DNA of 51,634 bases, from the NCBI GenBank assembly GCA_017470145.1, contig JAFUFB010000026.1:1-51634 (forward strand), written 5' to 3'. The position numbers and the translations under genes were made by a program. Positions within the stretch are counted from its first letter, which is position 1; each line of letters starts with the position of its first letter. The stretch is from Clostridia bacterium. Lineage in GTDB: Bacteria > Bacillota > Clostridia > Christensenellales > Aristaeellaceae. The notes under the pieces were generated by a model, which saw only the letters and a program-made list of their open reading frames with translations, did no database searches and had not been told where the DNA came from. Shown one piece after another: positions 15,728 to 51,634 of the stretch.

Positions 15728-15753
15728 GAAATACGAAAGATGTATCGCCGTGG

Positions 15754-15880
15754 CTCTTCTTTCATCCAGACTATACTGTCGGCTCCGGAATTCCACCGGA
15801 ATCGGCCTCTTCCCACCAAAGGAGGAAGGAGGTTCGCGGGCTATACCGCCGGTCGGGATTTACACCCTGCCCTGAAGAAG
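15754..15880 (-). ncRNA. FMN riboswitch (RFN element)
   Basis: The minus strand shows the highly conserved RFN blocks in order: GGGCAGGGTG, AATCCCGACCGGCGGTAT, AGCCCGCGA, then GCCGATTCCGGTGGAATTCC and GCCGACAGTATAGTCTGGAT, closed by complementary CTTCTTC and GAAAGAAGAG ends. It binds FMN and represses ribU when flavin is plentiful. Confidence 0.97.
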
Positions 15881-15929
15881 CTTCAAGAAAACGCGTCCTG
15901 TTAGTCAAAGCCTTAGCTTTGCCGAAAGC

Positions 15930-43373: not shown

Positions 43374-44015
43374 TTATGCCTTGCCGAATTTCGCCGCCAT
43401 TTGCCGATAGGTTTCCCGCATCCGCTGGTTCAGCTTTTCGCAGGTTTCCACATTCACGCCCTGTTTCGTCAAATCTTCGAATTCGATGGGCTCCCCCACA
43501 TAAGCGTTCACCCGGCGGAAAAACTTCAGTGGCCGATCCAGATAAATCGGGATCAAGGGCGCTTTCCCCCGCAGCACAATGAGGCTGGTGCCGTTTTCAA
43601 TCTGTTCCATCTGGCCCTCATGGTGCCGGGTGCCCTCGGGAAAAATCACCAGGGGCTGTCCATTCCGGATCACCCGCATGCAGGCCCGCATGGCCTCCAT
43701 GTCCGTATTGTGCCGATCCACAAAAATGCAGTGCAAATCCGTCAGCACCCATTGGATGAACCGATTCACCGCCAGTTCCTTCTTGGCCAGGAAGATACAT
43801 TGCTGCTTCACGGGCTTCGCCAGAATCAGGGGGTCCAGGGCATGCAGGTGATTGGAGATCAACACGCAGGCGCCGGAAAGCTGCCGCAGCTTTTCCGCCC
43901 CATGATACCGAACGGGCATAAATATGCTAAACAGCACCGCCGCAAACCCTCTGGCCACGGGATACAGTATGGATTTCTTTTCCTTTTCTTCCTTTACAAT
44001 TCCCTCAGTCGCCAT
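43374..44015 (-). CDS. plsC: 1-acyl-sn-glycerol-3-phosphate acyltransferase
   Basis: Membrane-associated enzyme making phosphatidic acid, 213 residues. The HX4D motif is NHLHALD (His56, Asp61) and FPEGTR lies at 125-130. A hydrophobic N-terminal helix (LYPVARGFAAVLFSIFMPV) anchors it. It overlaps cmk by 11 bp and is followed by ispH-rpsA, a gene order conserved in Clostridia. Confidence 0.93.
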   Translation of the reverse strand: MATEGIVKEEKEKKSILYPVARGFAAVLFSIFMPVRYHGAEKLRQLSGACVLISNHLHALDPLILAKPVKQQCIFLAKKELAVNRFIQWVLTDLHCIFVDRHNTDMEAMRACMRVIRNGQPLVIFPEGTRHHEGQMEQIENGTSLIVLRGKAPLIPIYLDRPLKFFRRVNAYVGEPIEFEDLTKQGVNVETCEKLNQRMRETYRQMAAKFGKA

Positions 44016-44679
44016 TTCGTACCGCCTCCGCCATCTTCACAATTTGATCCACCACCTGATCGAAGGTCAGGTTGGTGGAATCCAGCAGCGTGGCGTCCTC
44101 CGCCTGGCGCAGGGGCTCCACGGGGCGATGCATATCCTGCTCATCCCGGGCGATGACCTGAGCCAGCACCTCCTCAAAGGTGTCCGGCTCCCCCTTTTCC
44201 TGCATTTCCTTCCAGCGGCGGCGGGCCCGCTCCTCGCTGCTGGCCGTTAAGTAGATTTTCAGCGGCGCTTGGGGCAGCACCGTGGTGCAAATGTCCCGCC
44301 CATCCACGATCATATCCTGGGCGGCGGCCAGCTGCTGCTGCAGCGCCACCATATGCTTCCGAACCTGGGCATAGCGGCTGACGGTGCTGGCGGCCATGCT
44401 GACCTCGGGGGTCCGGATCTGGCTGCTGACGTCCTCCCCATCCAGCAGGGTGCGCTGGCCCTTCTCCCCTACCTGGACGGCCAGGTTCAGCCCCTGGCAC
44501 AGGGAAACCACCGCGTCCTCCTGGGCCGGGTCCACACCCTCCCGCAGGGTTTTCAGCCCCAAGGCTCGATACATGGCCCCGGTGTCCAGATGCAAAATGC
44601 CCAAACGGGCGGCCGCCGCGTCAGCTATGGAAGATTTTCCCGCCCCGACCGGGCCGTCAATGGCAATATTTAACCGCAT
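44005..44679 (-). CDS. cmk: Cytidylate kinase
   Basis: Phosphorylates CMP and dCMP with ATP in pyrimidine salvage, cytoplasmic, 224 residues. The P-loop GPVGAGKS is at 9-16, followed by LHLDTGAMYRALGLKTL. The NMP-binding domain contains VSMAASTVSRYAQVRK and VDGRDICTTVLPQAPLKIYL, and the lid RRRWKEMQEKGEPDTFEEV. Shine-Dalgarno AAGGGAG lies 10 nt before the ATG. First gene of the cmk-plsC-ispH/rpsA cluster. Confidence 0.96.
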   Translation of the reverse strand: MRLNIAIDGPVGAGKSSIADAAAARLGILHLDTGAMYRALGLKTLREGVDPAQEDAVVSLCQGLNLAVQVGEKGQRTLLDGEDVSSQIRTPEVSMAASTVSRYAQVRKHMVALQQQLAAAQDMIVDGRDICTTVLPQAPLKIYLTASSEERARRRWKEMQEKGEPDTFEEVLAQVIARDEQDMHRPVEPLRQAEDATLLDSTNLTFDQVVDQIVKMAEAVRNGD

Positions 44680-44708
44680 GATTCTATTTCTCCCTTCGCT
44701 TTCATTCC

Positions 44709-45887
44709 TTATTTCGCGGGATAATAGGTTCCGTAAACAAATTCATGAATCGCCTGGGCGTGCTTCGTCAGATTATATTTAATGACGGAGGAGCCGTTGG
44801 CCGTGGTATAGGAGTAGGAATGATCCATGGGCACCCGCATCTGCTCGAACAGGGACTCGCCCCCCGCGGCGCTGCTGAGGGTGGGCAGCAGGGAGAAGGC
44901 CAATTCCACCATGAACTGCAGATTCATGTTGGTGTCGGAATAATCCGCCGCCGTCCCCACCAGATCGATCATATCCAGGGGATCGAACTCCGCCAGCACC
45001 TTTTGCAGCAGCAGATCCAGCAGATGGCGCTGGCGATCGGTGCGGTTAAAATCGTTCTCGCCCTTCAGGCTCCGGGTTCGGGCGTACATCACCGCCTGCA
45101 CGCCGTCCAGATGCTGCGTGCCGGCCACCACCTCCAGGGGCGTCCGCTCTCCCTTGGCCTTATTGTCATAGGCCGGGGGATGCTCCTTCAGATACTTATT
45201 GATGTACCAGGCTTCGCCCTTGGTCAGCTCGATATCGATGCCCCCCAGGGAGTCGATGATGGAAGCCAGGCCATTGAAGTTAATGGCCACGTAGTTTTCG
45301 ATGTTCATCTGGAAATTCTTATTAATGGTCCGCATGGCCAGGGCAGCGCCGCTGCGCACCTTTTCCTTGGTGGTACCCTTCTTTACCTTGTTGCATCCAT
45401 ACTGGAAGGCATTGTTGATCTTGGTCTGATTCTTGTATCCCGGGATGGGCACCAAGCTGTCCCGCAGGATGGAGGTCATCTTGATGGCGCCGGTATCTTT
45501 ATTGATGGATACAATGATCTGGGTATCTCCCCGGCCAATGATCTCCTGGGGATCCTTGCTGCGGGTATCCACGCCCACCAGCAAAATGTTAATCACATTC
45601 TCCGGCAAATTGGGGTTCAGATCCAGGGAATCCGGATCGATCCCCGCGTCGTCCTCTTCCTCCTCTTCCTCATCCATCAGGGCATCCAGCTTTTGCTGTT
45701 CTTCCTCCGTCAGATAGAAGGTTTCTCCTGTGTCCTCATCCACATAGACGTCATCGCTGTCCAGATCCAACTCCAGCAGCACTTCTTCTACCACTTCCTC
45801 AATGATCAGATCCTCTTCTTCCTCGCCCAGGGCGATGGTGGGCAGGATCAGGCAAAGGGTCATCAGCCAGCAAAGCAGTTTTTTCAT
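44709..45887 (-). CDS. LytR-CpsA-Psr (LCP) family cell-wall glycopolymer transferase
   Basis: LCP proteins attach glycopolymers such as teichoic acids or capsule to peptidoglycan. The 392 residues contain NILLVGVDTRSKDP, SINKDTGAIKMTSILRDSLV and KINNAFQYG at the start of the LCP domain, then the DRQRHLLDLLL segment. Unusually, the N-terminus looks like a cleavable signal peptide (about 1-21), followed by a very acidic stretch of about 65 residues before the LCP domain, instead of a permanent membrane anchor. The chosen Met follows GGGAGG by about 10 nt. Confidence 0.9.
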   Translation of the reverse strand: MKKLLCWLMTLCLILPTIALGEEEEDLIIEEVVEEVLLELDLDSDDVYVDEDTGETFYLTEEEQQKLDALMDEEEEEEDDAGIDPDSLDLNPNLPENVINILLVGVDTRSKDPQEIIGRGDTQIIVSINKDTGAIKMTSILRDSLVPIPGYKNQTKINNAFQYGCNKVKKGTTKEKVRSGAALAMRTINKNFQMNIENYVAINFNGLASIIDSLGGIDIELTKGEAWYINKYLKEHPPAYDNKAKGERTPLEVVAGTQHLDGVQAVMYARTRSLKGENDFNRTDRQRHLLDLLLQKVLAEFDPLDMIDLVGTAADYSDTNMNLQFMVELAFSLLPTLSSAAGGESLFEQMRVPMDHSYSYTTANGSSVIKYNLTKHAQAIHEFVYGTYYPAK

Positions 45888-45911
45888 AATATCTTTTCCT
45901 CCCATTATTTC

Positions 45912-46499
45912 TTACGTGGTCGGATGATTCAGCTCATCCAGGGTCATGCTAAAGGCAGGCAGGAATTCCAGCAGGAAATCCTTCACCTCGGGATACTCGA
46001 TGCTTTCCAGCGTCTGGTGAATATTGTTAGCGGCGTAATCAAACTCCCGATTGCCGGCCCGCTGTTCCTCCAGACACTTGATGTAGGCGCTGATCTTGTC
46101 CGCCGCCTTGACGATATCCCGATCATATCCCTTCTCCTGCTTCAGGCAGGGGGCGAAGGCCGGCCGCATCTCCTCCGGCAGCAGATTCAGCAGCCGGTCA
46201 GCGGAGAGATCCTCCAAATGGTGATAGGCCCCCCGCAGGTCGTCGGAATAATATTTTACCGGCGTGGGCAAATCTCCCGTCATGACCTCGGTGGCGTCAT
46301 GATACACCGCCAGGGTCAGCACATGTTCCGGATTCACCTGCCGGCCGTACCGATCCCGGCCCAGCACCGCGATGGCGTGGGCAATCATGGTCACCTGCAG
46401 GGAATGCTCCGCGTCGTTTTCCGGCTGGGTGTTCCGCATGAGGGACCAACGATTGATCAGCTTCAGCCGGGAAAGATAAGCAAAAAAGGAATAGGCCAT
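45912..46499 (-). CDS. 5'-deoxynucleotidase, YfbR-like HD phosphohydrolase
   Basis: HD-domain enzyme that dephosphorylates deoxynucleoside monophosphates. The 195 residues match E. coli YfbR closely in layout: RLKLINRWSLMRN, the metal ligands His32 (DAEHS) and His67-Asp68, the catalytic Glu71, and GDLPTPVKYY, the YfbR hallmark. The start is the Met right after TAGGAGG. It is followed after 24 bp by the LCP gene on the same strand, so the two may be cotranscribed. It is the last gene before the AT-rich phage-like region. Confidence 0.93.
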   Translation of the reverse strand: MAYSFFAYLSRLKLINRWSLMRNTQPENDAEHSLQVTMIAHAIAVLGRDRYGRQVNPEHVLTLAVYHDATEVMTGDLPTPVKYYSDDLRGAYHHLEDLSADRLLNLLPEEMRPAFAPCLKQEKGYDRDIVKAADKISAYIKCLEEQRAGNREFDYAANNIHQTLESIEYPEVKDFLLEFLPAFSMTLDELNHPTT

Positions 46500-46704
46500 C
46501 CTGCCTCCTACATTCAAAAACACTCAATTTCGCATTGCCCTCCCCCTGGAGAGCAGCGACTTCATTATATCCTTTTTCCCCGGGGGATTCAAGGGCCGCA
46601 AAATAGGCCAGCGTAATTTAATTCAATCTGGGCCAATTGAAAACCCTTATAATTCAAAGTGTTCAAAGCACAGCGGATTGATTCAGGTTGGTTAGATGCT
46701 ACCG

Positions 46705-46986: not shown

Positions 46987-47015
46987 TTGCAGATGTTAGC
47001 ATTTTCTGGTATAAT
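46987..47015 (+). promoter_or_regulatory. Promoter of the phage-like operon
   Basis: TTGCAG (46987-46992), 17-bp spacer, consensus TATAAT (47010-47015) preceded by TGG; about 75 bp upstream of the gp10-like gene. Confidence 0.7.
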
Positions 47016-47095
47016 AAACGAAGGAAATACTTCTTTACTGCATGAGTATTTATGCAAAAAGATGTGAATATTTCCGGAAAGGTAGGTGATTTAGT

Positions 47096-47488
47096 ATGGG
47101 CATAAAAGTTGATCTTTCTCAACTTCAAGATTTTCAAAGCAAAATAAGCGCTTTGAATGGAGAGCAGAGAATGGAATTTTTCCGAAACAATACCAATGAA
47201 TTAGGAAATCGGTTGATTGCTCTTGTGAAGCCTCAAACCCCTGTAATAACCGGAACCTTGAGAAATAGCTGGGCAAGTACACCCGTGACGGAGAATGCGG
47301 ATAGTTATTCTATGGATGTGTACAACAGTCAAGAATATTCTGAATACGTGGAGTTTGGACACAGAACAGTTAATGGCGGATGGGTGGAAGGTACTCACAT
47401 GTTGGAAAAATCGGAAAATCAACTTGAACCCATTGCCCCCAAAACGATAGAGGGAAATCTTGATCGACTATTAAGGACGGTGTTTTAA
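47096..47488 (+). CDS. HK97 gp10-like phage head-tail/tail completion protein
   Basis: 130-residue homologue of the HK97 gp10/phi11 minor tail-completion family, which joins tails to heads in siphophages. The typical core is VKPQTPVITGTLRNSW, YSEYVEFGHRTVNGGWVEGTHML and a C-terminal helix. Shine-Dalgarno AGGTG lies before the ATG. It is the first gene of the operon from the promoter at 46987 and, unusually, is not accompanied by portal, capsid or tail genes. Confidence 0.82.
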   Translation: MGIKVDLSQLQDFQSKISALNGEQRMEFFRNNTNELGNRLIALVKPQTPVITGTLRNSWASTPVTENADSYSMDVYNSQEYSEYVEFGHRTVNGGWVEGTHMLEKSENQLEPIAPKTIEGNLDRLLRTVF

Positions 47489-47544
47489 GGGTTTGTTAAG
47501 CAGACACTATATAACTAAAACGAAAAAGAAAGGATGAAATTACC

Positions 47545-48291
47545 ATGGAAACGAAAGATTACAAGAAGTATGCAATTCAGGCAAGAGGACTAAATTCTAT
47601 GTGGCCTGATGAACTCAAGAAGAAGATTGACCAACTGAATCAGTCTCTATCGGATTGGCGCCTTTCCCCCTATGCAAAGGAAGAAAAGCGAAAGGAAGTC
47701 TATAAGGAATTACAGAGTACATGCGACAACATGAACAAGTTGTATAGAGAAATTCTAAAGAGATTTCTTGAAGACTTTGCTATCCATGTTCCTGAGGATG
47801 GAAAAGATCATTCTACCGACATTCAGAACGCCCTAAAAGTGATTGACATGCTGGGCTTTGATTTGGATGCTGCGAACTTCAGGAACATCATCACGCCCCT
47901 TAAAGGCTCATACAAGAATATGAAGATGATTCTTGATGTTATCAGTGCAAAAAAGGGTATTACGAGCGATTTACAGTATAGCCATGAAATCACTCAATTG
48001 GTAGATGAATACTTTGGCCCGTATACCATCGCCGGTGATTATCTGGAATTGATTGACAGAATCAATGACGCTATCAGTAGCCCTATTGGGTATCGTTTTG
48101 AAGCGTACACAATTGACAATTCCTACCTTGTCACGGCTGAAGAATTCATTCCATATTCTTTCCTTTCTTGCCCTGATTGGATTGAAGAAGCCGGGAAGAT
48201 GTATAGTGTTCTGGAAGGGAAATTGACTTCCCTTTATGACGGGCATGTTCCCACTGATGAAGAAATGATTATCGACAAACTGGGGAGGTAA
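47545..48291 (+). CDS. Unknown protein of phage-like operon
   Basis: 248 residues, not recognised. It is charged and mostly helical in character. The first 80 residues (DELKKKIDQLNQSLSDWRLS to MNKLYREILKRFLEDF) could form a coiled coil. No signal peptide or membrane segment. Shine-Dalgarno AAAGGATG lies upstream, 56 bp after the gp10-like gene. Codon use is AT-rich like its neighbours. Confidence 0.7.
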   Translation: METKDYKKYAIQARGLNSMWPDELKKKIDQLNQSLSDWRLSPYAKEEKRKEVYKELQSTCDNMNKLYREILKRFLEDFAIHVPEDGKDHSTDIQNALKVIDMLGFDLDAANFRNIITPLKGSYKNMKMILDVISAKKGITSDLQYSHEITQLVDEYFGPYTIAGDYLELIDRINDAISSPIGYRFEAYTIDNSYLVTAEEFIPYSFLSCPDWIEEAGKMYSVLEGKLTSLYDGHVPTDEEMIIDKLGR

Positions 48292-48297
48292 AGCACA

Positions 48298-48612
48298 ATG
48301 ACGGATCAGGAAAAAGAATTTATTGAAGAATTGGTTTTCCAGTATTTCAACGACACAGAGGTTACACAGTATGATCATGCTTTAGCTGCCGTAAAGAAGG
48401 CCGGATATAAGGAAAGTATTTCTATCAAGTATAAGCAGATTATAGATGAGCTGCTGAAGCGTGAAGATATCCAAACCGAAATCAAAAAGCAGAAACAGCT
48501 GATTCTGGAAAAGTTTTCAGGGGAGCAACGTAGAAATCTCTGGAAAGCAATTGTAAACATGGAAATTGGAGAACCTTGTGAATTGGAAGGTAGAATCCAA
48601 CTTAGATATTGA
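48298..48612 (+). CDS. Small helical protein of phage-like operon
   Basis: 104 residues, starting 6 bp after the previous stop with GGGGAGG upstream. The segment YDHALAAVKKAGYKESISIKY followed by IDELLKREDIQTEIKKQ recalls the helix-turn-helix of small terminases, but the match is weak and the true small terminase is downstream. Function unknown. Confidence 0.6.
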   Translation: MTDQEKEFIEELVFQYFNDTEVTQYDHALAAVKKAGYKESISIKYKQIIDELLKREDIQTEIKKQKQLILEKFSGEQRRNLWKAIVNMEIGEPCELEGRIQLRY

Positions 48613-48630
48613 TGCAACAAACCTAATGAT

Positions 48631-48661
48631 GTGGGCTTGTTCGATTCATGGACAAGCCCAC
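48631..48661 (+). terminator. Intercistronic 10-bp hairpin
   Basis: GTGGGCTTGT pairs perfectly with ACAAGCCCAC around an 11-nt loop, then AAATTTTATGG. It lies just before a TTG-started small gene. With its weak T-tract it may attenuate rather than terminate transcription. Confidence 0.5.
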
Positions 48662-48681
48662 AAATTTTATGGAGGTACAAC

Positions 48682-48819
48682 TTGAAACCTGATAATGTGA
48701 CGATAGATGAACCAATAGAGAACGAAAAGCAGGATAATCGAGCTACATTCCCGTATAACCCCCGCTTGGTATTTAATGACCCTGAATTGTTTTTCTCTGA
48801 GCTACTGCTGGATGAATGA
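48682..48819 (+). CDS. Small 45-residue protein, TTG start
   Basis: ATGGAGG lies 7 nt before TTG, which opens a 45-residue acidic protein (MKPDNVTIDEPIENEKQ... FFSELLLDE). The frame extends upstream without a better start. Not recognised. It precedes the ArpU-like gene by 16 bp. Confidence 0.5.
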   Translation: MKPDNVTIDEPIENEKQDNRATFPYNPRLVFNDPELFFSELLLDE

Positions 48820-48835
48820 GAAGGAGCCTTTCACC

Positions 48836-49327
48836 ATGGATGATGATTTGCGCATGTTGGCTGCTGAGGAATACTTAGCAGATATATGGATATACAGACA
48901 AAAGGTTGAGCGATTCTTGCAGGCGGTGGATACATGCAAGGCAAGATTGTATTCTATTGGGTTTACAGATTTCACCCAAACAAAAATCAAGTCTTCCAGC
49001 GGGAAAAAAGGTGCACATTATGAGAATGGCTTGATAAAGCTTGAGAGCCTACAGGAATTATATAAGAACAAGTTTTACATCTGGAAGTGTAAATCAATAG
49101 CCCCTTTGGTGAGTATCGGGAAATTGCAGAATGTGAATCATGAATACCTTCTAAGAAGCCGTTATTCCAGCGGTAAACCTTGGTCAGATATTCAGGAGAA
49201 GATAGGATGCAAGGATATCAAAGAGGCCCGTAATAACGCATTGATGGAGCTATCCTATATCATGGAATCAGAGGGAAGACTTGAAGCATACGCTAATAAG
49301 GTATTGGAAGGGGGAACAAGAAGATGA
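48836..49327 (+). CDS. DUF1492/ArpU-like phage regulator with sigma-region-4-type end
   Basis: 163 residues. The N-terminal helical part reads AAEEYLADIWIYRQKVERFL; the C-terminus EYLLRSRYSSGKPWSDIQEK to ARNNALMELSYIM resembles region 4 of sigma factors, as in DUF1492/ArpU late-gene regulators that usually sit just before the terminase genes. Shine-Dalgarno GAAGGAG lies 9 nt before the chosen ATG. Its end overlaps the small terminase start by 4 bp (ATGA). Confidence 0.72.
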   Translation: MDDDLRMLAAEEYLADIWIYRQKVERFLQAVDTCKARLYSIGFTDFTQTKIKSSSGKKGAHYENGLIKLESLQELYKNKFYIWKCKSIAPLVSIGKLQNVNHEYLLRSRYSSGKPWSDIQEKIGCKDIKEARNNALMELSYIMESEGRLEAYANKVLEGGTRR

Positions 49328-49746
49328 ATGCAAAGCAACGGAGATTTGCAGATGAATATTTGATTTGCTTGAATGGTACAGAAGCAGCCATCAAAGCAGG
49401 ATACAAAGAGAAGACAGCACGAATACATGCATCTCGCATGCTATCAAATGCTAACATACGTGTATATATAGATGAACAGCTTGAAAGAATCCACAGCGAG
49501 AAAACGGCAGACGCAAAAGAAGTCATGGAGTATTTGACAGCTGTTATGCGGGGCGAGAAGAAAGAGCAGATTCTGAAGCTATCAGGAAACGGGGAACAGG
49601 AAGTGATAACGATTTCACCCCCTACCAGGGATCGCATCAAAGCTGCTGAGCTAATCGGAAAGAGTTATTGCATATTCAACGAAAAAATCAATTATGAGTT
49701 AATCAAACCCATTGTGATATCTGGTGAGGAATTCTTAGAAGATTAG
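49324..49746 (+). CDS. Phage terminase small subunit
   Basis: 140-residue DNA-recognition subunit of a packaging terminase (Terminase_2 type). The N-terminus is classical: MNAKQRRFADEYLICLNGTEAAIKAGYKEKTARIHASRMLSNANI. The C-terminal part (DRIKAAELIGKSYCIFNEKI) matches the oligomerisation region. It would choose which DNA is packaged, but no large terminase (motor) gene follows: the next genes are a sigma-like protein and terminators. Confidence 0.9.
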   Translation: MNAKQRRFADEYLICLNGTEAAIKAGYKEKTARIHASRMLSNANIRVYIDEQLERIHSEKTADAKEVMEYLTAVMRGEKKEQILKLSGNGEQEVITISPPTRDRIKAAELIGKSYCIFNEKINYELIKPIVISGEEFLED

Positions 49747-49757
49747 AGGATGGGATC

Positions 49758-50141
49758 ATGAGTGGGAAAGAATACTTGACCCAATTGGAGCGACTTCAAG
49801 AGCTGATAGAAGCAGAAGAAACAGACTTAAAAAACTATGCTGAATTGGAAAGCGACTTTGCTTTTCCCGCAAGAGGAAAGAAGCTTTATCAGAGGATGAT
49901 AGAAGACCAAAGGAAAACAATTCAAAGTCAAAAAGATTTCTATCCGACACTGGAAGACATGATTTCCAGCAAAATACAGGAATTGCGCTTACCAAAGGAA
50001 AAGAAGGTTTTGACTATGAAGTATATTGCTGGGGAAGACTGGCCTTCTATCTTTGGGAGCGTGGAAGGGTCAGAAGATTCTATCTTTGCTATTCATAAAA
50101 GAGGCCTGAAACATCTTGAAAAGCTGATTGACAATATATAG
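49758..50141 (+). CDS. Second sigma-region-4/ArpU-like protein
   Basis: 127 residues. The N-terminus (KEYLTQLERLQELIEAEETD) is like DUF1492 proteins. The C-terminus LPKEKKVLTMKYIAGEDWPS and SIFAIHKRGLKHLEKL has the region-4 helix-turn-helix pattern. It starts 11 bp after the terminase stop with GAGGATGG upstream. Probably regulates late transcription (inference). It is not a close copy of the protein at 48836-49327, but has the same architecture. Confidence 0.75.
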   Translation: MSGKEYLTQLERLQELIEAEETDLKNYAELESDFAFPARGKKLYQRMIEDQRKTIQSQKDFYPTLEDMISSKIQELRLPKEKKVLTMKYIAGEDWPSIFGSVEGSEDSIFAIHKRGLKHLEKLIDNI

Positions 50142-50345
50142 TGGCATTTGGAATCCATACCACAATATATAGAGGAGTAACGAAACGTTACCCCCTGACA
50201 TGAATATTGCATAAACGGAAAAAATCGGAGTGTATAAATGGAATGAATAATCCGACTTATACACGTATAACTTGCATAAAATCACTGGCAAGTATTTTCT
50301 GGGATATCTCATCCCCCATTATTGACAGGGACGCTCAATGATGGC

Positions 50346-50400
50346 CCTTTCAACTATTCGTGAAACAAAGGTTTTACGAATAGTTGAAAGGATTTTCTTG
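50346..50400 (+). terminator. 21-bp hairpin terminator of the phage-like operon
   Basis: CCTTTCAACTATTCGTGAAAC (50346-50366) folds onto 50371-50391 with a single G-U pair and the loop AAAG, followed by ATTTTCTTG. It is unusually long for a terminator. Confidence 0.8.
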
Positions 50401-50590: not shown

Positions 50591-50619
50591 TTGACAAGTG
50601 TGTTAAAAAGTATTATTAT
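50591..50619 (+). promoter_or_regulatory. Promoter of the 58-residue protein gene
   Basis: TTGACA (50591-50596), 17-bp spacer, TATTAT (50614-50619), followed 9 bp later by the palindromic operator. Confidence 0.8.
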
Positions 50620-50628
50620 TGCGTTTGG

Positions 50629-50644
50629 ATACTTAATTAAGTAT
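50629..50644. promoter_or_regulatory. Repressor operator, copy 1
   Basis: ATACTTAATTAAGTAT is a perfect 16-bp palindrome placed at about the transcription start. A close relative lies at 51401-51420. Confidence 0.7.
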
Positions 50645-50683
50645 TCCAAAGCATACCCAAATCAAGAAAGGAAGGTTTGAACC

Positions 50684-50860
50684 ATGAGCAACACGACAAT
50701 TAAGGATTTTCTAAGCGACATCGAAGATGGACTTTCAGCCATCGAAGCAATCACAATTTCAGAACTTGATGACGAAATGAAGGACAGAGCTGCTAATTTT
50801 GTGACCGATGGAATCAGAAGAAAACTTGCACAGATTGAAGCAGAGTTGAATCAAGATTGA
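50684..50860 (+). CDS. 58-residue acidic protein under repressor control
   Basis: ATG preceded by AAAGGAAGG; 58 residues, MSNTTIKDFLSDIEDGLSAI to RKLAQIEAELNQD, strongly acidic and helical, with no recognised domain. It lies between a promoter-operator module and a bidirectional terminator and opposite the XRE repressor gene. It could be an antirepressor, an antitoxin-like protein or another early protein; nothing in the sequence decides. Confidence 0.7.
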   Translation: MSNTTIKDFLSDIEDGLSAIEAITISELDDEMKDRAANFVTDGIRRKLAQIEAELNQD

Positions 50861-50930: not shown

Positions 50931-51311
50931 TTATTCCTCTGACTGTAGATAATCTTCTATCTTGCTTAGATCAAGGATGTATTCAAAAACTTTTCTTTTT
51001 CCGGTTTCATTCAGTTTTTCATAATTCATAAGCAAGCTATATAATTGAGAATCGTAGATTTCAGCATATTCTAACACTTTCACCCCTGCAGAAAGAATAG
51101 TATCTTCACCATCCCAATTCATTAAGTCTGAAAGAGGTACTTCTAACACATTCGCGATTTTGTTTAGATACTCCGCGGACATTGCCCCTTTTCCGCGATA
51201 ATAGGCAGACATTAATGTCGTATATGGCATTCCTGCTTTATTGGCAAGCTCTTTTTTGGTCATGTGTTTTTGCTTTAGTATATGATCAATTCGATCATAA
51301 AGAGTAGCCAT
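50931..51311 (-). CDS. XRE-family phage-type repressor
   Basis: 126 residues with a Cro/CI-type helix-turn-helix at the N-terminus (DRIDHILKQKHMTKKELANK to ALNKIAN-like VLEVPLSDLMNWDG) and a helical C-terminal half (SLLMNYEKLNETGKRKVFEY). It lacks a peptidase domain, so derepression would not use RecA-type self-cleavage. Shine-Dalgarno AGAGGAGGG precedes the ATG. The promoter arrangement upstream (51344-51394) is that of a lysogeny switch; operators at 50629 and 51401 are its probable targets (inference). Confidence 0.85.
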   Translation of the reverse strand: MATLYDRIDHILKQKHMTKKELANKAGMPYTTLMSAYYRGKGAMSAEYLNKIANVLEVPLSDLMNWDGEDTILSAGVKVLEYAEIYDSQLYSLLMNYEKLNETGKRKVFEYILDLSKIEDYLQSEE

Positions 51312-51343: not shown

Positions 51344-51372
51344 ATTCTAATCAATTGAGAAGCTGTTGACAA
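51344..51372 (-). promoter_or_regulatory. Repressor promoter
   Basis: Minus strand: TTGTCA (51367-51372), 17-bp spacer, TAGAAT (51344-51349). Its -35 overlaps that of the opposing plus-strand promoter almost completely. Confidence 0.7.
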
Positions 51373-51394
51373 GGCTTTAAAAGAGTATTATAAT
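51366..51394 (+). promoter_or_regulatory. Perfect-consensus promoter opposite the repressor
   Basis: TTGACA (51366-51371), 17-bp spacer, TATAAT (51389-51394): full sigma-70/sigma-A consensus, followed 6 bp later by the operator. Confidence 0.85.
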
Positions 51395-51400
51395 TCAGAA

Positions 51401-51420
51401 GAATACTTAATAAAGTATTC
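51401..51420. promoter_or_regulatory. Repressor operator, copy 2
   Basis: GAATACTT and AAGTATTC arms around AATA; closely similar to the palindrome at 50629-50644 and in the same place relative to its promoter. Confidence 0.7.
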
Positions 51421-51629: not shown

Positions 51630-51634
51630 ATTTA

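Follow-up and report, generated by a model that had tools for sequence, protein, structure and literature searches.

Phage satellites lie repressed in the chromosome until a helper phage induces them, are replicated by their own primase, and use their own terminase small subunit (TerS) to direct the helper's terminase large subunit (TerL) and heads; capsid-forming phage-inducible chromosomal islands (cf-PICIs) carry capsid genes as well. Here, we analysed a contig of 51,634 bases (JAFUFB010000026.1, whole contig referred to as the window) from a 2.45-Mb draft genome of a Clostridia bacterium (30 contigs; estimated completeness 83.7%, contamination 4.5%). The last 5 kb of this window probably belongs to an integrated, helper-dependent phage satellite, of which the contig end leaves only the left part. 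Judged by sequence comparison, the satellite most likely belongs to a group of compact elements, marked by a protein we call ORF248, that is not described in the literature we searched: no account of the group was found in open-licence publications, a scope outside which most subscription papers and bioRxiv lie.

Satellite tape measure genes have their closest precedents in the PICI-like elements (PLEs) of Vibrio cholerae and in some cf-PICIs, both covered by a 2026 paper (PMC12987554). PLEs encode their own tape measure protein together with a tail chaperone and, in some cases, a hub protein, and chimeric tails containing helper parts have been shown; loss of the PLE tape measure gene cut transfer by 96–99% in two variants, and some cf-PICIs are listed as PICI-like islands with a putative tmp gene (Extended Data Fig. 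10 legend; PMC12987554). The ORF248 group resembles PLEs, which we compare by description and not by sequence, in its satellite-encoded tape measure protein, seen in the relatives rather than in the window. It differs in adding TerS, gp10 or an adaptor, a sigma factor, a D5-type primase, ORF248 and a further shared protein, named SNIEII here. In contrast to cf-PICIs, no capsid genes were found in the group except portal and head-protein stretches in one relative, L248 (loci are numbered with L, genomes with G).

The Gram-positive PICIs, including the Staphylococcus aureus pathogenicity islands (SaPIs), are described as elements of about 15 kb with an integrase, a repressor, a replication gene, an optional TerS and class-exclusive genes; their listed features also comprise the absence of phage structural genes, an attachment site that prophages never use, and induction and packaging that depend on a helper (PMC6092414). 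The ORF248 group shares the integrase, repressor, replication gene, optional TerS and class-exclusive genes (integrase and primase in relatives, repressor in the window), and one relative, L244, measures 13.2 kb between its bounding repeats, compared with about 12–15 kb for PICIs, the window copy being truncated. The group nevertheless carries tape measure and neck genes, and the window itself a gp10-like neck gene, at odds with the listed absence of structural genes; because structural genes are present, the window element lies outside the 2018 PICI definition. In Gram-negative PICIs, the Rpp protein is a satellite protein that binds the helper TerS and redirects packaging (PMC6739421). It is a possible working model for ORF104, a second protein of the group, which differs in being TerS-like itself. 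Lastly, the Clostridioides phage phiC2 has adaptor (p10), gp10 (p11) and tape measure (p20) genes homologous to those of the group, but, as a complete phage with a contractile tail, it also has genes for TerL, portal, capsid and sheath.

TerS without TerL leads to a group of compact elements

In complete tailed phages TerL is expected directly after TerS, whereas in the window this place is taken by a 127-aa regulator and a terminator-like hairpin. Around relatives of the window TerS, we scored TerL by size, as an open reading frame (ORF) of at least 380 aa between stops, TerL identity not being otherwise established. Such an ORF follows TerS at 73 of 81 viral and phage loci, at 22 of 28 loci from same-family genomes (a 29th locus gave no TerS match in the rerun) and at 66 of 71 genome-collection loci, and most loci where it is missing are cut short. 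The ORF248 group came to light through three exceptions, L026, L173 and L202; in L096, L097, L185 and L201, too, no ORF downstream of TerS reaches full TerL size.

L026, L173 and L202 each encode an ORF248-related protein plus a tape measure protein after TerS. The L173 protein is 30% identical to window ORF248 over 241 aa (2.3e-29), and those of L026 and L202 are tied to L173 by alignment and profile. A profile of four ORF248-type proteins found matches in 4 of 391 genomes of the class, namely the window's own and three more (weakest G882, 6.8e-4), a scan for SNIEII returned nine viral loci, eight of them new, and a scan with the L252 protein gave two more. This brings the distinct elements that encode ORF248-type proteins, the window aside, to 14 (L026, L173, L202, L243, L244, L245, L247, L249, L250, L252, L253, L254, L275 and L276), not counting second copies of the same places (L240, L241, L242, L246 and L274). 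The full ORF248 profile includes 12 of the 14, with L243 and L247 left out; a leave-one-out profile of 12 relatives, from which the window was excluded, matches ORF248 with an E value of 9.4e-29 and none of the other window ORFs at E≤1.

Relatives of ORF104 directly adjoin ORF248-type genes in L252, L275 and L276. In alignment, ORF104 begins like TerS but has another end. The L276 relative exceeds the Pfam small-terminase cut-off in its N-terminal part (26.7 versus 26.1 bits; Terminase_2, 9.4e-6), window ORF104 stays below it (Terminase_2, 0.016), and the L275 relative has no such match.

Phage loci served as a control. Among 178 phage-type loci the ORF248 profile had no match below E 0.01 (best 0.024) and the SNIEII profile had none; likewise, queries with the ORF248-type proteins of the window and L026 and with SNIEII from L202 matched nothing in 50,697 phage records. 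The ORF104 profile reaches phage loci weakly (best 4.2e-4), in what are taken to be TerS genes. The predicted structure of ORF248 is mostly helical with one beta hairpin (model confidence, pLDDT, 79), and fold searches of the PDB and of viral model libraries with it returned nothing at E≤0.001.

An initial annotation of the window had proposed a phage satellite, a proposal upheld in part by the occurrence of the ORF248 and ORF104 groups in compact elements and by the phage-locus control. The same gene block, which it suggested looking for in related genomes as a compact island, was not found as a unit outside the window's own genome. Searches with ORF248 had a match in 1 of 61 relatives and 1 of 396 genomes of the order, both the window's own, and a gp10 search had one in 1 of 308 genomes, again the window's own, and none in viral contigs; peptide-pattern scans of viral and genome collections for ORF248, which detect close relatives only, returned nothing.

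Layout and structural genes of the relatives

In the fuller elements (L202, L244, L251, L252, L253 and L275), the integrase and repressor genes are on the strand opposite to the D5-type primase and the late genes. Gene sets vary: L244 has no recognised TerS or SNIEII, L275 no recognised SNIEII, a sigma factor was not recognised in L252 or L275, and L248 and L251 carry SNIEII and tape measure genes with no recognised ORF248. TerS was recognised in 10 of the 14 relatives, nine by tblastn and L253 by PHROGs. A tape measure gene is present in 12 of the 14, with L254 and L276 ending before its usual place, and the L245 copy precedes ORF248. In L244, exact 17-base repeats bound a stretch (L244:2857–16076) that includes the tape measure and ORF248 genes and lies ~100 bases past a ribosomal protein S9 gene (named by eye). 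L202 showed no repeat of at least 12 bases in the stretches compared, and a 12-base repeat in L252 is weak.

With phiC2-type structural queries, tape measure, adaptor and gp10 matches were found in 14 group loci. Beyond these, L248 had matches in portal and head-protein stretches, L245 weakly matched a head protein (1.3e-7) and L253 matched phiC2 p23; the window end gave a gp10 match only. TerL, portal and head-morphogenesis matches were found in all ten phage loci chosen as a control from the 178. In L248, positions 1–2642 hold the portal stretch and a Mu-F-like head protein directly upstream of the SNIEII and tape measure genes; this one relative may carry more head genes.

A TerL profile matched none of the nine virus records of the group, records that may be fragments. 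In G728, G748 and G882 the profile hits other contigs or places more than 200 kb from the element, the genome of L202 has no match, and the two matches in the genome of L173 are on contigs not tied to L173; in L173 itself, a tblastn search with two TerL proteins gave no match. For L275 and L276 the check was by tblastn only. Several candidates were set aside: MT836503 and MT836670, small gut records matched by the tape measure query, look like ordinary phage tail clusters when their ORFs are judged by eye, and OP209178 is annotated with TerL and portal.

A role of the tape measure gene in making shorter tails finds no support, with 12 satellite proteins spanning 641–1070 aa versus 708–815 aa for 8 phage proteins. 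Nor is it supported that the tape measure genes of satellites, or their TerS genes, share a single origin, with four label changes in each tree (the 298-aa L173 protein being left out of the tape measure tree); a satellite-only TerS clade may reflect phage loci having been gathered with the window TerS.

An insertion truncated by the contig end

The genes in the last 5 kb of the window are real and foreign, as indicated by a drop in GC content and by a relative with an empty site. GC is ~0.40 in the last 5 kb, against 0.49–0.63 (about 0.58) across 2-kb windows up to ~46 kb. Genome G063, whose HD-domain protein is 98% identical, is colinear with window positions 43935–46619 at 94.5% identity; beyond the match its host sequence continues into an SPFH-like gene (named by eye), indicating that the insertion starts near 46,610. 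The far junction was not located: the SPFH-side flank of the G063 site has no match in the window's assembly, to which the 17 kb that follow it match only in short, scattered pieces. The contig stops inside the element, ~320 bases past the cI start. No TerL, portal or capsid ORF is present in the ~5 kb of the element before the cut at 51,634; because the contig ends inside the element, absence of capsid and motor genes cannot be judged from this copy. Elsewhere in the window, an ordinary flavin mononucleotide riboswitch lies at 15750–15883 on the minus strand.

Table 1 Features at the right end of the window.
Feature	Position	Strand	Evidence or remark
Left junction, element/host chromosome	46610 (approximate, within ~10 bases)	.	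divergence from G063 after 94.5% match (44420–46619)
gp10-like neck/tail completion protein, 130 aa	47096..47488	+	PF04883 4.9e-10; phrog_5 1.4e-17; phiC2 p11 2e-22
ORF248, group-marking protein	47545..48291	+	leave-one-out profile 9.4e-29; predicted mostly helical
ORF104, N-terminal part TerS-like, end different	48298..48612	+	relatives adjoin ORF248-type genes; alignment
Internal terminator-like hairpin, 14 pairs, short T run	48630..48662	+	over start of ORF62
ORF62, doubtful as gene	48631..48819	+	internal hairpin covers start
ArpU/sigma-region-4 type regulator	48836..49327 (open frame from 48776)	+	phrog_36 3.2e-5; no Pfam match
Terminase small subunit (TerS)	49324..49746	+	PF03592 2.9e-33; phrog_51 1.9e-40
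Second ArpU/sigma-region-4 type regulator, 127 aa	49758..50141	+	phrog_36 1.8e-10
Terminator-like hairpin, 20 pairs	50346..50391	+	sequence scan
Promoter TTGACA-17-TATTAT (50591–50619), then operator-like palindrome (50628–50645, one mismatch)	50591..50645	+	
ORF58, small protein	50684..50860	+	no family below E 0.05 (Pfam, PHROGs)
cI-like repressor	50931..51311	-	PF13443 6.7e-11; 31% identity to L251 repressor
Promoter TTGACA-17-TATAAT (51366–51394), then exact operator-like palindrome (51402–51419)	51366..51419	+	points into unseen part

The listed window ORFs are intact (Table 1), and the direction of the late genes is inward, away from the attachment side and towards the repressor. The matches in Table 1 agree with the initial annotation in its gp10-like head-tail protein, small terminase, two sigma-region-4-like proteins and unknown small proteins; for the terminators and lysogeny switch that it placed downstream, we find the 20-pair terminator-like hairpin and the cI-like gene. 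Its single promoter-to-terminator unit is not confirmed: the 14-pair internal hairpin argues against one uninterrupted transcript and makes it doubtful that ORF62 is a gene, and a consensus scan found no promoter ahead of gp10 (20 promoter-like sites versus 14.0 expected, weak evidence either way). An 86%-similar copy of the downstream hairpin lies on another contig of the same assembly (G000, C8:41243–41279), near an ORF that looks tyrosine-recombinase-like by eye.

The two palindromes are of one type, with 0.00 expected in shuffled sequences, and each lies 7–8 bases past a near-perfect promoter. The repressor, together with these operator-like sites at plus-strand promoters, would form a simple repressor circuit.

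Signs of maintenance and of module exchange

L026 and L247 share 99.0% identity across 2,404 bases but differ in their TerS genes, which cannot be aligned at the DNA level and are placed apart in the TerS tree; of the two elements, gp10 was found in L247 only. From these sequences, the pair appears to be a case of natural module exchange. Non-synonymous and synonymous divergence (dN and dS) of the tape measure genes is 0.029 and 0.092 between L026 and L247, and 0.201 and 0.935 between L243 and L026; dN being below dS fits selection keeping the protein. The comparisons L249/L248 (no usable value) and L026/L250 (dS saturated) were dropped.

Alternative explanations

Several observations weigh against a satellite. 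The nearest ORF248 relatives are only ~27–30% identical to window ORF248, and the window gene order, with gp10 first and ORF248 before ORF104 and TerS, matches no relative, although it would be a circular shift of the usual order if the integrase sits at the far right end. No integrase, primase, tape measure or SNIEII gene is seen in the available 5 kb of the cut-off element, where the phiC2-type queries found no tape measure match and the SNIEII profile matched nothing. TerS was not recognised in 4 of the 14 relatives (L244, L245, L250 and L276), of which L250 has a cut first ORF that is TerS-like by eye and L276 carries an ORF104-type gene. The window TerS falls among phage TerS in the tree, and TerS and gp10 by themselves would suit a phage. 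Furthermore, stops occur in the ORF248 gene of L243, in the tape measure gene of L249 and in an ORF104-like stretch of L252, and the L173 tape measure protein is a C-terminal part only, indicating that some copies are decayed.

The phage-like TerS and gp10, the unmatched gene order and the broken genes of some relatives would all suit a decayed prophage, in which deletion and rearrangement removed the block from TerL to the tail and left TerS, gp10, the regulators and the repressor. We consider this unlikely, and less likely than a satellite: the window ORFs are intact, its promoters and operators look kept, and ORF248 recurs in the 14 other compact elements while it passes the E 0.01 threshold in none of the phage-type loci, a confinement not expected from independent decay. 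Another rival is an intact prophage whose gene order is unusual and whose TerL, portal, capsid and tail genes lie past the contig end; in its favour, the contig ends inside the element. It is improbable given how regularly a TerL-size ORF follows TerS elsewhere, whereas here a small regulator and a terminator are followed by a repressor and an early-type promoter, and ORF248 and ORF104 point to the compact group. As for phage-derived sequence wrongly joined to a host contig during assembly or binning, the draft state of the genome, its contamination estimate and the abrupt GC change could be so explained, but the host part is colinear with G063 up to the junction, as in a real insertion. An artefact is very improbable, and the coding content of the 5 kb would stay unchanged in any case.

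Proposed mechanism and implications

A helper-dependent satellite of this kind would be kept silent in the chromosome by its repressor until a helper relieves repression. The helper is likely to be contractile-tailed and of the phiC2/EJ-1 type, given the matches of gp10, the adaptor and the tape measure protein to such phages. A prophage resident in the same genome (G000 contig C16:121000–140000, L267) looks different from this type; it has a portal (PF04860, 4.5e-65), a tail tube (PF25681, 1e-8), a long tape-measure-like ORF and a large terminase with a weak phrog_2 match (2.1e-8). As to the comparison of small terminases with co-resident prophages that the initial annotation suggested, the C16 prophage has tail genes of another type, and the assembly contains one PF03592 match only, with no second small terminase of this family.

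After induction, a primase, expected to the right of the contig end, would replicate the satellite, the ArpU-type proteins would switch on the late genes, and the satellite TerS would guide the helper's TerL and heads to the satellite's own DNA. ORF104 may combine with the helper TerS in mixed complexes and hinder helper packaging. The gp10 protein, and in relatives also the adaptor and the tape measure protein, would replace the helper versions, giving chimeric particles, and ORF248 might act as an assembly factor for this exchange, which is a guess. By analogy with the described systems, satellites of the ORF248 group thus most likely combine PICI-style TerS redirection with PLE-style part exchange. 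This keeps the TerS redirection of the SaPI-type model in the initial annotation and modifies the rest, with relatives that also carry tape measure and sometimes neck proteins, and window late genes that run inward.

A bolder picture, somewhat more doubtful than probable, is that of an undescribed satellite family without head or motor that replaces the parts the DNA meets: the selector (TerS and ORF104), the neck (gp10 and adaptor) and the tail lumen (tape measure protein). ORF248 and SNIEII would impose this exchange, and TerS would be swapped between near-identical elements to change helper. The L026/L247 pair makes such helper switching by TerS exchange testable. The combination of TerS, neck and tape measure genes, with no capsid genes so far seen, suggests that neck and tail exchange may be a broader habit of satellites, and ORF248 and SNIEII provide markers for finding such elements, which could otherwise be mistaken for decayed prophages.

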